A stretch of 64,000 nt of DNA from Desulfocapsaceae bacterium (GTDB lineage: Bacteria; Desulfobacterota; Desulfobulbia; Desulfobulbales; Desulfocapsaceae), in NCBI GenBank assembly GCA_031292275.1, contig JARLHL010000114.1:1-64000 (forward strand). The letters are read 5' to 3'. Shown here piece by piece: positions 10,147 to 16,855 of the stretch. Every line of letters starts with the position of its first letter. Within the stretch, counting starts at the first letter, position 1. The position numbers and the translations under genes were made by a program. The notes under the pieces were generated by a model. That model searched no databases, was not told the DNA's origin, and was given only the letters and a program-made list of their open reading frames with translations.

Positions 10147-10695
10147 TCACGGTTCTTTGATCATCCGGTCGAAGACCCCAATCATCTCAGGCGTATTCCA
10201 CTGCCGATAGCCCATGGCGGCAAAAACCAGCTTTCCTTTTTTATCTATCAGAAATTTCGTAGGATGGGCGCGGACGCGGTAGGCGGCACTGACGGCGCCT
10301 TCCTGATCGAGAAGCACGTCGAAGGCATATCTCTGGCGGACGACAAGAGACCGTACCGTTTCAGGCGATTCTCCGGCATCAATCATAACAACACTGAACG
10401 GCTGATTCTGATAATGACTTACAAGGCTCTGCAGGAAAGGCAACTCCTTTCGACACCAGCCTCAGCCGGTAGTCCAGAACCCCAGCAGGACGACCCTGCC
10501 CTGATAGTCGCTCAGATTGACCAGGTGACCGGAAAGATCCCGCAAGGCAAGACCAGGAGCCTCCGTCCTTTTGTCTGGCGGAAGCAGGTTTGCTGTCATA
10601 TTTTCATGGTCCCGCCCCCCTGAACCGGGACGGAGAAAGGTGATCACGCCGAACAATGCGATCAGTCCAAGGATTATCAGCAGTTTTGCTCTCAT
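10147..10695 (-). CDS. TlpA-like thioredoxin selenoprotein (in-frame TGA = Sec78)
   Basis: A membrane-anchored TlpA/ResA-like thiol oxidoreductase of 182 residues if the in-frame TGA at 10464-10462 is read as selenocysteine. The N terminus MRAKLLIILGLIALFGVI is a signal anchor; the thioredoxin fold starts at about residue 45 (APGLALRDLSG, the usual GxVVxLxFW strand as GRVVLLGFW). The active site reads FWTTGUGWCRKELPFL, i.e. U78-G-W-C81 exactly where the family has C-x-x-C. Homology continues in the same frame after the TGA (VVMIDAGESPE, the cis-Pro region AHPTKFLIDKKGKLV, C-terminal helix). A hairpin of bacterial SECIS type lies directly downstream of the TGA. ATG at 10695 follows AGGAATAAA. 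Likely a periplasmic disulfide reductase. The alternative, a nonsense-disrupted pseudogene, is less likely because the TGA replaces precisely the catalytic Cys. Confidence 0.85.
10425..10464 (-). promoter_or_regulatory. UGA codon and SECIS-like hairpin
   Basis: Immediately after the UGA (10464-10462) the mRNA can fold as GGCU (10461-10458) with AGCC (10428-10425), an internal loop, then GAAAGG (10451-10446) with CCUUUC (10440-10435) closing the 5-nt loop AGUUG (10445-10441). The apical loop begins 16 nt after the UGA and has G at its second position. Both points agree with the bacterial SECIS rules (loop 16-37 nt downstream of the UGA, a G among the first two loop bases). This would recruit SelB. 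Confidence 0.7.
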
Positions 10696-11002: not shown

Positions 11003-11431
11003 TCATTTGGCCTGCGGGACCTGCCGGTACTGATCCGCCTTCTCAGCGATCCTGGTACGCAGATCGATCATTGATTTCTCAAGCACCGCCAGCTGCTCTC
11101 GGTTGGTATCCGGCTTTCTCTGTAATTCCCGGTACTGAAAGCGCTTGTCATTCATCTCCTTACGCAGTCCAGCGGTATCATCAAGAAATTTCTGTCGATT
11201 TTCACTGGTCCAGTTTCCCTGCCCGAATCCCGCGGCCCTGGGGCAATAGAAACTTCCGTCATCACCACTGTAACCGCCCATCATGCCGCCACCACCTCCG
11301 CCCATCATGCCGCCGCCACAGCCGCCGCCCCTCATACCATAGCCGGGACCATAACCATTGCCCGCGGCATAGACCATACCGGAAACAGCAAGCCCGAGAA
11401 CGAGAATACTTGCAGCCAACGTCTTTTTCAT
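11003..11431 (-). CDS. zraP: ZraP-like periplasmic zinc/stress-associated protein
   Basis: A 142-residue exported protein of the ZraP/CpxP/Spy-like family. Signal peptide MKKTLAASILVLGLAVSGMVYA, then a Gly/Met-rich low-complexity segment (GGGCGGGMMGG and similar, about residues 32-58), then a helical region with QGNWTSENRQKFLDDTAGLRKEM and coiled-coil-like continuation, as in metal-responsive periplasmic chaperones. The family binds Zn and dampens or reports envelope stress to the ZraS kinase. ATG at 11431 follows AGGTGATAGGT. A sigma-54 promoter lies about 110 bp upstream and an NtrC-type regulator and kinase follow upstream in the same direction, reproducing the zraP-zraSR arrangement of enterobacteria. 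Metal specificity is not shown by sequence. Confidence 0.85.
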   Translation of the reverse strand: MKKTLAASILVLGLAVSGMVYAAGNGYGPGYGMRGGGCGGGMMGGGGGGMMGGYSGDDGSFYCPRAAGFGQGNWTSENRQKFLDDTAGLRKEMNDKRFQYRELQRKPDTNREQLAVLEKSMIDLRTRIAEKADQYRQVPQAK

Positions 11432-11541
11432 ACCTATCACCTTTTTTTCTTGAATGCACCATCCCGGATCGACAGGACAGTCCGATTTTGAGCCTTGATG
11501 TAAAAACACCGGTCAAGACCATACTCTTTGGTTTCTTCAAA

Positions 11542-11556
11542 GCAGGGATCGTGCCA
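11542..11556 (-). promoter_or_regulatory. Sigma-54 (-24/-12) promoter of zraP-like gene
   Basis: Minus-strand TGGCAC (11556-11551), 5-nt spacer GATCC, then CTGC (11545-11542), against the consensus TGGCAC-N5-TTGC: only one mismatch and the invariant GG and GC in place. Distance to the zraP ATG is about 110 bp. The neighbouring regulator has an intact GAFTGA motif. Confidence 0.8.
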
Positions 11557-11650
11557 GATGGCGCAATAATATAGAAAATCGTTTATATGGCTGAATATAT
11601 TTAAATTATTCAAACGAGGCAAGAGAAGAGATGGAGAGACGCCCAAGGTT

Positions 11651-11669
11651 CTGTCCATTTTCTGGACAG
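11651..11669. promoter_or_regulatory. Palindrome, likely activator (ZraR-type) binding site
   Basis: CTGTCCATTTTCTGGACAG is a perfect 7-bp inverted repeat with a 5-bp centre, centred about 105 bp upstream of the -24 element, the normal position of an enhancer-type site for a sigma-54 activator. The regulator encoded at 11850-13208 is the obvious candidate (inference). Confidence 0.65.
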
Positions 11670-11799
11670 ACAGCCCGGCATCGGCTGCAACCAACCGTCT
11701 GATTTTTTAACAGTCAGGCCCCGCAGGTATCCAGGAGGGCGAAAGGAGTGAAAGATGAACGGTCCCCGTCGCGACGGAGTCTGGCCGCCTCGGCAGAAA

Positions 11800-11831
11800 A
11801 GAGCGTCCTGTCCCCCTTTCCTTCGGACAGG
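11800..11831 (-). terminator. Hairpin after zraSR-like operon
   Basis: CCTGTCC (11807-11813) and GGACAGG (11825-11831) form a 7-bp stem with an 11-nt loop just beyond the regulator stop; on the minus strand it is followed by ACGCTCTTTTC. Probably the operon terminator. Its arms share CTGTCC/GGACAG with the palindrome at 11651-11669, so a second regulator site is an alternative reading. Confidence 0.5.
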
Positions 11832-11849
11832 GCATTCTCCGCATTCCCC

Positions 11850-13208
11850 CTATAGGTCATACTCCTTAATCTTGTTGAGCAGCGTCTGCCGGGAGACTCC
11901 CAGTTTTTTTGCCGCCTGACTCCGGTTGTTCCCCGTCTTGCTCAGGGTTGTCTTTATGACTTCCCGCTCCATATCCCGCAGGGTATAACCGACGTCAACC
12001 TGCGGACGTCTTGCAGCCTGGGCATCTTCGGCCAAGAGATGCAGGGGCAGATCCGAGGGAAAAATCTGTTCCCCAAGGCAGAGAATGGTGGCACGTTCCA
12101 TGGTGTTTTCCAGCTCCCGGATATTCCCGGGCCAATCATACTGCATCAGAAGATTCATGGCCTCAGGGTGAATCCCTTTAATATCCTTTCTGTTCTTGTC
12201 TGCATAGCGCCGCAGAAAAGACTGCGCCAGCTCCGGGATATCGAGGACCCTGTCCTGCAGGGACGGGAGGTGGACCGGGACGACGGACAGGCGGAAATAA
12301 AGGTCCTGGCGGAACGTCCCCTGGGCAATCATCGTCTGCAGGTCCTTATGGGTGGCCGCCAGCAGGCGGACATCCACCTTGATTGTTTCAGTGCCTCCCA
12401 GCCTCTCGAACTCACCCTCCTGCAGGACCCTGAGGATCTTCGCCTGGGTCGTCAGGCTCATATCCCCGATCTCATCGAGAAACAGCGTCCCCCTGTGTGC
12501 CAGCTCAAACCGGCCCTTGCGCCTGCCGGCAGCACCGGTGAATGCCCCGGCCTCATGTCCGAACAACTCGCTTTCCAGGAGGTGTTCGTTCAGCGCCGCA
12601 CAATTCAATTTGATAAAGGGAAGGTCTCTCCGGCCGCTGTTGTGTTGAAGGGCATTGGCAACCAACTCCTTTCCGGTCCCCGATTCACCGGTGATCAGCA
12701 CAGTGGCGTCCGTGGGAGCGACCATGGCCAGGACGGCAAACATCTCCTGCATGGCAGCACTTCTGCCGATAATGGCATCAAAGGAGTACTGCCGGGCCAA
12801 CCTGCTCCTGAGAGTCTTGTTCTCTTCGCTGAGGCTCCTGATGGTGACGGCCCTCCGGATGAGGATCATGAGTTCACCGATATCCACCGGTTTAACGATG
12901 TAGTCAAAGGCACCCTTCTTCATCGCTTCCACCGCGCCCTCCACCGAGGAAAAGGCTGTCAGCACAATAACCGGGATGGTATATCCGGCCTGCAGCAGGA
13001 GGGATAAGGTCGTCGCTCCATCCATTCTGGCCATCTTCATATCCAAAAGGATCAGATCCACATCATGATCCGCCAGAAAGGATAAGACCTCATCACCATC
13101 CGTCACCGCCTCAACCTGAAAGCCCTCAGCCATCAGGTTGACCCTGAGCATAGTCCGGTGAGCGGCATCATCATCAACCAGCAGAATTTTTCTGGTAATT
13201 GTTTCCAT
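11850..13208 (-). CDS. zraR: Sigma-54-dependent response regulator, ZraR-like
   Basis: A 452-residue NtrC-type activator. Receiver (about residues 5-120) with phospho-acceptor Asp in VDLILLDMKMARMDG; AAA+ domain (about 145-375) with Walker A GESGTGKE, the sigma-54 contact motif GAFTGA, Walker B LFLDEIGDM and arginine finger region FRQDLYFRL; Fis-type HTH at the C terminus (NNRSQAAKKLGVSRQTLLNKI). It needs ATP hydrolysis to open sigma-54 promoters. The start overlaps the kinase gene by 35 bp, so the pair is co-translated. The target most clearly suggested is the zraP-like gene 400 bp downstream, which carries a -24/-12 promoter and an upstream palindrome. Confidence 0.92.
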   Translation of the reverse strand: METITRKILLVDDDAAHRTMLRVNLMAEGFQVEAVTDGDEVLSFLADHDVDLILLDMKMARMDGATTLSLLLQAGYTIPVIVLTAFSSVEGAVEAMKKGAFDYIVKPVDIGELMILIRRAVTIRSLSEENKTLRSRLARQYSFDAIIGRSAAMQEMFAVLAMVAPTDATVLITGESGTGKELVANALQHNSGRRDLPFIKLNCAALNEHLLESELFGHEAGAFTGAAGRRKGRFELAHRGTLFLDEIGDMSLTTQAKILRVLQEGEFERLGGTETIKVDVRLLAATHKDLQTMIAQGTFRQDLYFRLSVVPVHLPSLQDRVLDIPELAQSFLRRYADKNRKDIKGIHPEAMNLLMQYDWPGNIRELENTMERATILCLGEQIFPSDLPLHLLAEDAQAARRPQVDVGYTLRDMEREVIKTTLSKTGNNRSQAAKKLGVSRQTLLNKIKEYDL

Positions 13209-14952
13209 CAGCCCCCCTCCTCATCTTCTGTAACACCACCGTCACTGTTGTACCTTCTCCGGGAGCGGTATTCACCTCAAGGTGGCCGCCATGCTGCTCA
13301 ACGATCTGATGGCTGACCGCAAGTCCAAGCCCGGTGCCTGTTTTGCCTGTTGAAAAGAACGGATCGAACATTCTCTCCCGCTCGTGGTCAGTCATGCCGC
13401 AGCCGGTATCCGTCACTGAGATCCTGACAAGATCATCCGCCCATCCCCTCAACCGGATCTCTCCTCCGGAGGACGTGGCATGGACGCTGTTCAGCAGGAG
13501 ATTCATAAAGACCTGCAGCAGCAGATCCGGGTCCGCATCAAAGCAGATACCGCCGTCACACTGCCAGAGGAACTTCAGTCCATGGCCGTTGAAATCGCCC
13601 TCCATCAGGGCAGCGGTCCTTCCCAGCAGCTGATCGAGCACGACCGGGACCAGCTGCGGTTCCCGGGGCCTCGCGAACTGCAAGAGACCAGCAACGGTGC
13701 GGTTGAGACGATCGACCTCGCTGATCATAAGCTCCGCATACCCTTTCCCCTCGGAATCCTCCCCTGCCTGATTGCCGAAATAATGGGCAAATCCCCGCAG
13801 CGTCCCCAGCGGATTGCGGATCTCATGGGCGATGCCTGCGGCCATTTTCCCCAGGGCTGCCATCCGGCGTGAACGTTCGAGCTGCTGCTCCATGTCCTTA
13901 ATCTGGCTCATGTCCCTGATAATCAAGACTGTTCCGATGACTTCGCCCAGGCTGTTGGCAAGCGTCGACCCTCCGATATTGACGGGGAGACTGCGGCCAT
14001 TACCGATACTGCACAGGCAAGACTGCTCAAGGCCTGTCCGACAGATCTGCGCGCAGTTGATCGGCCAGCCTGGAAGAACGGCGCTGAGCGTTTTCCCTTT
14101 GCACTTTTCTAGAGAAAACCCCAGAATATCCTCGATTCTTCTGTTGCAGGAGACAATCCTCTCCTGGGTATCAAGGGTCATCACCCCTACAGGAATGCTC
14201 TCAATGACGTTGTCCGTATAGAGTTTGACATTGGCAAGGGTCAACTGGGCGACACGCATTCCTTGATAGAGGGTAAGGAAATACAGGCCGGCCCCGCCGA
14301 CAAGAAAGAGCACCCCTCCCATAAGCAGGGCATGCTGGACATCATGCCTGCGGGCCTGGTCAAACTCCGTTGTCAACAGACCGACAGTGACAATTCCTTC
14401 GCTGAGCTGGCCCCTGCCGCCCCCCCAGCCCAGGCGCCGCTGTTCCCGCCGCATCATCGGCATGGCCCTGCCGCCGCCGGACTGGAAGTGAAAGTGTTTG
14501 GAAAGGGCAAAGACATTTTTATCCATGTGGACGACAGACGTCTCGGAGGCCAGAATGCGCTGGCGCTCTGCATCGGTAAGTTCCGGTCCCTGGACCTGAC
14601 CGGCCTGGTTGACCACGGTCCCGTCCGCCCGGATAATGCGGATAAAGGCAATATCGTTCTCCCGGCTGCTTTCAGTAATCAGAGTCTGGAGAGGATCGTC
14701 GTCGCCCAGAAAATGCATCATCGAGGTCCTCATTCCGGCCTCAACCGCCATGACGATGGTCTCCCCTTTCTGCTGGAGGAAACCTTCCATCCGGCTTCGG
14801 GCGCTATGAATATTCTCGACAATGGAGACGACAAGCAGGATGACCAGAAGGACCGCCGCTGCCATCAGGCCCAGAGCCGTCGGGGAGGCTTTAAAAGGCA
14901 GACGCGAAGAGAAGATATCCTGCTGCTGAGGGGAAGTTTCGAGGCTGTTCAT
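13174..14952 (-). CDS. zraS: Membrane sensor histidine kinase, ZraS-like
   Basis: A 592-residue kinase. Two membrane spans (about residues 25-50, LGLMAAAVLLVILLVVSIVE, and about 205-225, LLMGGVLFLVGGAGLYFLTL) bracket a periplasmic sensor with His/Met/Gly-rich stretches (HFHFQSGGGRAMPMMRREQ), which suits metal sensing. A PAS domain (about 245-360; with ICRTGLEQSCLC, cysteine-rich) precedes the H-box LGKMAAGIAHEIRNPLG and a HATPase domain (DTGCGM, GTGLGLAVSHQIVEQHGG). ATG at 14952 is used because the upstream in-frame extension looks non-coding; the ribosome site is weak. It overlaps the zraR-like gene and probably phosphorylates its product. Confidence 0.88.
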   Translation of the reverse strand: MNSLETSPQQQDIFSSRLPFKASPTALGLMAAAVLLVILLVVSIVENIHSARSRMEGFLQQKGETIVMAVEAGMRTSMMHFLGDDDPLQTLITESSRENDIAFIRIIRADGTVVNQAGQVQGPELTDAERQRILASETSVVHMDKNVFALSKHFHFQSGGGRAMPMMRREQRRLGWGGGRGQLSEGIVTVGLLTTEFDQARRHDVQHALLMGGVLFLVGGAGLYFLTLYQGMRVAQLTLANVKLYTDNVIESIPVGVMTLDTQERIVSCNRRIEDILGFSLEKCKGKTLSAVLPGWPINCAQICRTGLEQSCLCSIGNGRSLPVNIGGSTLANSLGEVIGTVLIIRDMSQIKDMEQQLERSRRMAALGKMAAGIAHEIRNPLGTLRGFAHYFGNQAGEDSEGKGYAELMISEVDRLNRTVAGLLQFARPREPQLVPVVLDQLLGRTAALMEGDFNGHGLKFLWQCDGGICFDADPDLLLQVFMNLLLNSVHATSSGGEIRLRGWADDLVRISVTDTGCGMTDHERERMFDPFFSTGKTGTGLGLAVSHQIVEQHGGHLEVNTAPGEGTTVTVVLQKMRRGADGNNYQKNSAG

Positions 14953-15087
14953 GGGATACGCATGTTCCCTTTTCTGTTTGAATTTATCTTTTCGGCACCC
15001 TGAATTGTATCTGCCGGCAGCAGGTATCGACAGACGCCGCAGGCCTTTCCCCGCCACGCCTTCCGGAGTGTGCAGGGACCGGGTGAC

Positions 15088-16617
15088 TCAGCCCTTGCGC
15101 TGCCATTTCAGCCACCACTTCAAGGCGGCGGCGACAGGGGGCGTCAGCCGGGTCCGGTTATAGGCCGCCGCCACCCGGCGGATGGCCTCAGCCTGCGTCG
15201 GATAGGGATGAATGATATCGGCCAGTTTTTTGAGACCGACCTTCCCGGCCATGGCCACCGAGATCTCATTGATGAGGTCTCCGGCATGGGAACCGACAAT
15301 AGTGGCGCCGAGAATCCGGTCCGTGCCCCTCCGGACCAGGACCTTGACAAAGCCTTCACTTTCGCCATCGACAAGAGCCCGGTCCACCTCATCCAGGCCC
15401 ACCCTGTAAGTATCGACAGCCATGCCTCTGGCCTCGGCCCCGGCCTCAGAGAGGCCGACGTGGGCAATTTCAGGAGACGTATAGGTGCACCAAGGCATAT
15501 TCAATCGACTGAGGCGTTTTCTGCCCCGGAACAGGGCGTTCTGCACAGCGATACGGGCGGCGGCATCGGCGGCATGAGTGAACTTCCAGTCCATGCAGAT
15601 ATCGCCGGCCGCAAAGACGGCCGCATTGGTGGTGCGCAGAAAATCATCCACCAGGACACCCCGACGGGAATCGTAGGCCACGCCGGCCTTCTCCAGTCCG
15701 AGCCCTTCCACATTGGGCGCCCGGCCGGCACCGATCAGAATCCGGTCCACCGCAATGGTCTCCTCCTGTCCCCCTGTCCGGACAGTGATCTCCCGGCCGG
15801 CATCCGTCTTCTTGACGGTGAGGAGTCTGGCATCGAGCAGCACCCGAATGCCCTCTCTTCTGAAGACCCGGGCCAGCACATCCGATGCCTCAGCATCCTC
15901 CCGGGGTAGAAAACGACTGTGCTGAATGAGTGTCACAGCAGATCCCAGGCGGGCAAAGGCCTGGGCCAGTTCACAGCCGATGGGGCCTCCGCCCACCACT
16001 GCCAGGCGTCCGGGGAGTTCCGTCAGGTCAAAAACCGTCTCGCTGGTCAGAAATCCGGCGGCATTCAGGCCCGCGATCTCCGGGTGCACGGCACGGGCCC
16101 CGGCAGCAATTATGGCCCTGCGGAAATGGAGGTCCACGCCATCGACGCTGACAGTCCCGCGATCCGCGAACGAAGCAGAACCGAAAAACACGTCCACGCC
16201 CATCGCTTTAAAACGATGGGCGGAATCATTATGGCTGATATCCGCCCTCAGCCGCCGCAGCCGTTCCATGACCGCAGGAAAATCAGCCGGGCTCACCTGC
16301 CCCGGCCGCAGTCCGAAACAGGAGGCACCGGCCATTTCGGCGGCAGCCCGGGATGAGCGGATCAGACACTTGGACGGCACGCAACCCGTGTTCAGGCAGT
16401 CTCCTCCCATCAGATGGCGCTCCACCAGAGCGACCTTGCCGCCGAGCGCGGCGCAGGCTGCAGCAGAAATGAGCCCTGCCGTTCCGGCGCCGATCACCAC
16501 CAGATTATACATGGACGCTGGCCGGGGCGACACCCAGCCGGCAGGATGCACCTGGGCCAGCAGCCTCTGATCATCGTCCCTGCGGCCTGAAGCCAGACCC
16601 TGCAGACAGTCCTCCAT
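15088..16617 (-). CDS. MerA/dihydrolipoamide dehydrogenase-like flavoprotein
   Basis: A 509-residue pyridine nucleotide-disulfide oxidoreductase. After a 38-residue N-terminal extension (HPAGWVSPRPASMYNL), the FAD motif VVIGAGTAGL and the redox-active pair in GGDCLNTGCVPSK are clear; the NAD(P) motif is VVGGGPIGCELAQAFARLG and the second FAD contact FAAGDICMDW. The dimerisation domain ends in HPYPTQAEAIRRVAAAY. The C-terminal vicinal Cys pair of mercuric reductase is absent, so this is one of the 'MerA-like' disulfide reductases of unknown substrate and not a proven Hg(II) reductase. ATG at 16617 follows GGAGAGGTGCTC; an ATG at 16656 has no such site. It follows the zraS-like gene upstream on the same strand by 135 bp. 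Confidence 0.86.
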   Translation of the reverse strand: MEDCLQGLASGRRDDDQRLLAQVHPAGWVSPRPASMYNLVVIGAGTAGLISAAACAALGGKVALVERHLMGGDCLNTGCVPSKCLIRSSRAAAEMAGASCFGLRPGQVSPADFPAVMERLRRLRADISHNDSAHRFKAMGVDVFFGSASFADRGTVSVDGVDLHFRRAIIAAGARAVHPEIAGLNAAGFLTSETVFDLTELPGRLAVVGGGPIGCELAQAFARLGSAVTLIQHSRFLPREDAEASDVLARVFRREGIRVLLDARLLTVKKTDAGREITVRTGGQEETIAVDRILIGAGRAPNVEGLGLEKAGVAYDSRRGVLVDDFLRTTNAAVFAAGDICMDWKFTHAADAAARIAVQNALFRGRKRLSRLNMPWCTYTSPEIAHVGLSEAGAEARGMAVDTYRVGLDEVDRALVDGESEGFVKVLVRRGTDRILGATIVGSHAGDLINEISVAMAGKVGLKKLADIIHPYPTQAEAIRRVAAAYNRTRLTPPVAAALKWWLKWQRKG

Positions 16618-16855
16618 GAGCACCTCTCCGTAAACGCCGCTCCGATCCGCCATCATCGCGCCGAAGCAAGCCTTCTTCCCCTCTCCCCCTGCCCTCCTTG
16701 CGCCCGCAGGCTCAGACTGATCAGCCGGGTCTGAATACCGGGAGCAGGACGAGGCGCCGGGGCGGCGCCTCCAGGTTCGAGCCGGAAAGGCAGGAGAGGA
16801 TCACGCGTCAGGCCTGCATCGCACTTTCTCCACTCCATTCTCTTGTCCGGCAGGA

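Follow-up and report, generated by a model that had tools for sequence, protein, structure and literature searches.

The minus strand of the window (the whole stretch of 64,000 nucleotides that was analysed) carries a gene whose product is best read as a genuine, probably periplasm-facing UxxC thiol-disulfide oxidoreductase; the in-frame UGA of the gene very probably encodes an active-site selenocysteine (Sec). A sequence-only reading had described two frames joined by one TGA. Its coordinates and the FWTTG-U-GWC junction are correct, the strand, which it had left unnamed, is the minus strand, and the two frames form a single 182-residue frame with its only internal TGA at 10464-10462. The TGA was said to coincide with the first catalytic position of a CxxC-type motif, and this is indeed where residue 78 of FWTTG-U-GWCRKE lies. 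Translated from 10695 to 10150, the gene reads MRAKLLIILGLIALFGVITFL...VVLLGFWTTG-U-GWCRKELPFL...AHPTKFLID...MIKEP. An AGGA is present a few bases 5' of the ATG at 10695. The features of the gene are collected in Table 1.

Table 1. Position of the predicted selenoprotein gene and its features in the window.
Feature	Position	Strand	Details
Predicted TlpA/ResA-like selenoprotein gene	10147..10695	minus	182 residues and stop; ATG at 10695, stop TGA at 10149-10147 (translated with TGA=U)
In-frame TGA, putative selenocysteine codon, residue 78	10462..10464	minus	first position of U-G-W-C
Cys81, second (resolving) residue of UxxC	10453..10455	minus	invariant in the Sec alignment
bSECIS-like hairpin	10435..10451	minus	stem 10451-10446/10440-10435 (GAAAGG/CCUUUC), loop AGUUG at 10445-10441
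Pro145, presumed cis-proline of the thioredoxin fold (AHPTKFLID)	10261..10263	minus	invariant in the Sec alignment; aligns with PTTFLI of ResA
N-terminal hydrophobic segment, residues 2-21	10633..10692	minus	from sequence; helix 2-21 in the AlphaFold2 model

Purifying selection acts on the frame beyond the UGA (dN/dS about 0.06-0.24), and this part is translated and useful. In the part 3' of the hairpin, dN/dS was about 0.17 between the window gene and G001 and 0.06 between G001 and G002, both values being only rough because dS is high in these two pairs, while 0.24 was obtained for G065 against G067 and 0.18 for G275 against G471. When the remainder of the window was scanned by codon usage for TGA-joined frames, none with an obvious redox motif came up; the hits were mostly antisense-type shadow frames and the present gene itself was unranked, so the scan is insensitive.

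In 16 homologous genes, drawn from two families and several genera, the UGA occupies the same alignment column; 15 of these are genes other than that of the window, and they reach down to about 30% identity. The read-through search covered 93 genomes of the family of the window. In this family the same single TGA was present in G001 and G002 (55% identity), in G031 (48%), in G062 (42%, with a second copy at 38%) and in G064, G065 and G067 (32-36%). The Sec genes of this family come from several genera, and all nine copies seen in their clade have Sec. When the profile of these genes was compared with the class, the other relatives were listed without internal stop, save one flagged match. This match, in G117, had been flagged with a TGA, but the gene actually has CxxC. 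The phylum-wide search added a second set, seven UGA genes in one other family (f33; L189-L195), which read FWATW-U-PNC, -LNC or -PSC and include two copies in G402. The sequence-only reading had called for homologues with Cys or Sec at the UGA position, and the relatives do have UGA or Cys in that column. Stops or frameshifts elsewhere in sister genes, which it had named as evidence against a selenoprotein, were not seen; the sister genes share the single UGA and are free of other stops.

Phylogenetically, the nine Sec genes from the family of the window grouped into one clade (SH-aLRT 99) and the f33 genes into a separate one, in which a Cys relative from G449 was nested. The data do not reject a single origin of Sec for both clades (AU p 0.49), nor is the nesting of the Cys relative in the f33 clade firm (p 0.31). 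This relative (L200) belongs to the f33 family, has CPGC and lacks the stem of the hairpin described below; it is possibly a reversion from Sec to Cys. The scan of named genome contigs was made with a Cys-only pattern, which is blind to UGA forms, and it yielded named Cys relatives only. A TlpA-like match flagged with one TGA was also noticed at G448:C80:8852-9346, with a Cys paralogue 3 kb away in that contig; a motif search of this G448 stretch found the Cys paralogue only.

A hairpin with a 5-nt loop, G as the second loop base and a position 16 nt downstream of the UGA had been claimed from the sequence, and it is borne out by the 10451-10435 hairpin. The published bSECIS model has a loop of 3-9 nt, a stem of 4-16 bp, a G within the first two loop positions, a spacing of 16-37 nt and an MFE of at most -7.5 (PMC13188914 Fig. 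2). The window hairpin lies within all these constraints, with a loop of 5 nt, G second, a stem of 6 bp, 16 nt between UGA and loop and -16.7 kcal/mol for the fold of the 48 nt from the UGA. In this fold the hairpin is situated at the tip (z -2.4; 4 of 200 shuffles were as good), and the 19-nt hairpin core alone gives -6.3 kcal/mol. Several sisters fold with energies no better than those of shuffled sequences, and the global minimum does not always contain the hairpin.

Comparison with Cys homologues was more informative. Each of the 16 UGA genes is able to form the six-pair stem, with 16 nt between the UGA and the loop; the f33 genes add one further pair, which leaves a loop of three bases. 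By the same test the stem was found in one of 147 Cys homologues, and in none of the 29 which share the peptide motif C-[RK]-[KE]-E-[LM]-[PS]. Within the window's family, the nine Sec genes hardly differ in their stem codons (AAG/GAG, GAG, TTG/ATG/TTA, CCT/TCT, TTC/TCC), whereas Cys genes vary the third positions of the corresponding codons. The presence of the stem in every Sec gene against a single Cys gene, along with the fixed codons, indicates that the nucleotide sequence is kept, beyond what the peptide alone asks for. Covariation in the stem went no further than one pair, at which A-U, G-U and G-C occur, and it was not significant on its own in a shuffle control. The weight of the hairpin evidence lies in the comparison with the Cys homologues, covariation alone being weak. 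As the UGA column is conserved in 16 genes and the stem shows this distribution between Sec and Cys genes, the observation goes beyond chance.

The genome of the window (4.14 Mb, 99.98% complete) possesses selA (630 bits, cut-off 268), selB (370 bits, cut-off 242) and a tRNA-Sec (selC; anticodon TCA) that reaches 73 bits against a gathering score of 47; two selD genes also score above their cut-off. With all these components present, the genome very probably decodes Sec. The absence of sel genes had been put forward as evidence against Sec decoding, and selA, selB, selC and selD are all in the genome. The two selD genes are L049 (G000:C64:33414-34343) and L048 (G000:C2:38365-39288); one selD is interrupted by an in-frame TGA (ARTCG-U-AAKIG) and appears to be itself a selenoprotein, and the other has Cys there (QGGCSAKL). 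In the window's family, the 94% complete assembly of G064 has the UGA gene and an intact hairpin, but selA, selB and tRNA-Sec were not found in it. Similarly, selA and tRNA-Sec were not detected in the G031 assembly, nor selB and tRNA-Sec in that of G065, though the UGA gene is present in both. Among the sister genera g11 and g12, selB was seen as fragments in G062 and G067 and was not found in G064 and G065. The undetected sel genes of G064, G031 and G065 and the selB fragments of G062 and G067 are attributed to assembly gaps and fragmented assemblies.

The TlpA-like identity first suggested for the protein agrees with its homology to ResA/TlpA by Pfam, NCBIfam and PDB sequence search. AhpC-TSA was the best Pfam match (7e-22), followed by Redoxin (4e-17). 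In NCBIfam, ResA came top (95.9 bits), then StoA and TlpA, all below cut-off, and the PDB sequence search gave ResA with E 3e-21. The invariant residues of eight aligned Sec proteins include U78, C81, R82, E84 and P145; the CxxC-type motif, here as UxxC, and the presumed cis-Pro loop of TlpA/ResA-like (cd02966) proteins are both present. The AlphaFold2 model, built from eight sequences only, is of moderate confidence (pLDDT 64.5, pTM 0.62). Foldseek matched it to a Geobacter thioredoxin (3kcm), ResA, DsbE and TlpA with high rmsd, as parts of the model are poor. Residues 2-21 probably form a membrane anchor, as suggested by their hydrophobic character and the modelled helix.

It is highly probable that the product is a membrane-anchored, periplasm-facing thioredoxin-fold protein of TlpA/ResA type with a Sec-Gly-Trp-Cys active site, in which Sec is inserted by means of SelB and the hairpin. 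Computation shows the open frame, the place of the UGA, the sel genes, the conservation of the hairpin, the purifying selection and the homology; for decoding efficiency, localisation, redox direction and substrate we infer the following course. SelB carrying Sec-tRNA(Sec) would bind the hairpin after the UGA, so that Sec would be inserted with no termination. The U78 selenol may then attack a disulfide or an oxidised substrate to give a mixed selenide-sulfide, which C81 would resolve into a U78-C81 bond, and by analogy this bond would be re-reduced by a membrane thiol donor of CcdA/DsbD type. These last steps follow the established biology of ResA/TlpA/CcmG and of CcdA/DsbD.

A single in-frame stop is also the pattern expected of a young pseudogene, in which the UGA would be an ordinary nonsense mutation in a decaying gene. 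Decay is scarcely conceivable: 16 genes from two families and several genera keep UGA at this codon, they are free of further stops and frameshifts, and the part downstream of the UGA is under purifying selection. Near-cognate tRNAs are able to read through UGA, and the codon could in this way be read as another amino acid, or act mainly as a terminator giving a short membrane peptide with minor read-through. This is very improbable, for the gene's own stop is also TGA, the UGA position aligns with the catalytic Cys of other homologues, and the bSECIS-like hairpin occurs along with the full Sec machinery.

The function of such a selenoprotein allows for a different choice, namely that it works chiefly as a peroxidase or an oxidising isomerase and not as a ResA/TlpA-type reductase. 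Peroxidases often use Sec and the top Pfam match is AhpC-TSA, but that family is matched by TlpA/ResA proteins as well, the motif is UxxC where peroxiredoxins have TxxU, and the closest family in both NCBIfam and PDB is ResA. A chiefly peroxidase or isomerase role therefore seems unlikely, and the ResA/TlpA-type oxidoreductase with Sec at its active site is preferred.

The upstream region of that strand (window 11003-16656) encodes a small protein that is rich in Gly and Met, looks exported and has no Pfam match, an AtoSC/ZraSR-like pair of histidine kinase and sigma54 response regulator, and a MerA-like FAD disulfide oxidoreductase of PRK06370 type (779 bits). Downstream of the gene there is an ABC transporter set of the branched-chain amino-acid type. 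In G002 a MerA-like gene is directly upstream of the Sec gene, and Sec holders outside the genus have different neighbours. Gene neighbourhood was dropped as a guide to function, since it is not conserved beyond the genus.

It had been foreseen that a gene caller would split or truncate the gene, and standard callers would cut it at residue 77, so that the annotations of this genome and its relatives miss a redox enzyme. The Sec clade of the window's family, the second Sec clade with its nested Cys relative and the many Cys homologues make up a Sec/Cys series, which is a natural set for testing the contribution of Sec to a membrane-anchored thiol oxidoreductase. The understanding of selenoproteins is unchanged by the finding.

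Among known systems, ResA of Bacillus (NF002854, PDB 1st9/3c71) is the closest family by sequence, over residues 44-163; it is a membrane-anchored extracytoplasmic thiol-disulfide oxidoreductase, as the window protein probably is too. It differs in having Cys where the window protein has Sec, and the window protein falls outside strict ResA (NF002854), with 95.9 bits against a cut-off of 170. The WAxxUGC_long ResA-like selenoprotein (NF041054) shares a ResA-like domain and Sec in the active site; its motif is UGC instead of the UxxC seen here, its model has 354 positions, and the window protein scores 45.7 bits against a cut-off of 300. Prx-like thiol:disulfide oxidoreductase selenoproteins of PF00578 with UxxC or UxxU are catalogued (PMC13188914 Table 1). 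By the published description of this group, the window protein resembles it in matching PF00578 and having UxxC, but it is nearer to ResA/TlpA than to peroxiredoxins. It also lacks the TxxU motif of peroxiredoxin selenoproteins (PMC13188914), having UxxC.

The nearest published match is formed by thiol-disulfide isomerase-like selenoproteins of cd02966 (TlpA-like) with UxxC, first reported in PMC1088965 and catalogued in PMC13188914 Table 1. By their published description, they share with the window protein the TlpA-like thioredoxin fold, a UxxC motif that begins with Sec and a bacterial SECIS that follows the UGA. No published clade with a UGWC motif was found in the literature searched. It is rather doubtful that the genes represent an undescribed ResA-like Sec-only clade with a separate function in envelope redox or metal stress, Sec having been acquired twice in the TlpA-type proteins of the phylum; the context invoked for such a function is the MerA-like gene nearby in the genus and the AtoSC/ZraSR-like pair in the window. 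The Sec clade of the window is perhaps a new subfamily, as it reaches no NCBIfam model at its cut-off. The window gene itself belongs to the catalogued TlpA-like UxxC selenoproteins and is not new in kind.
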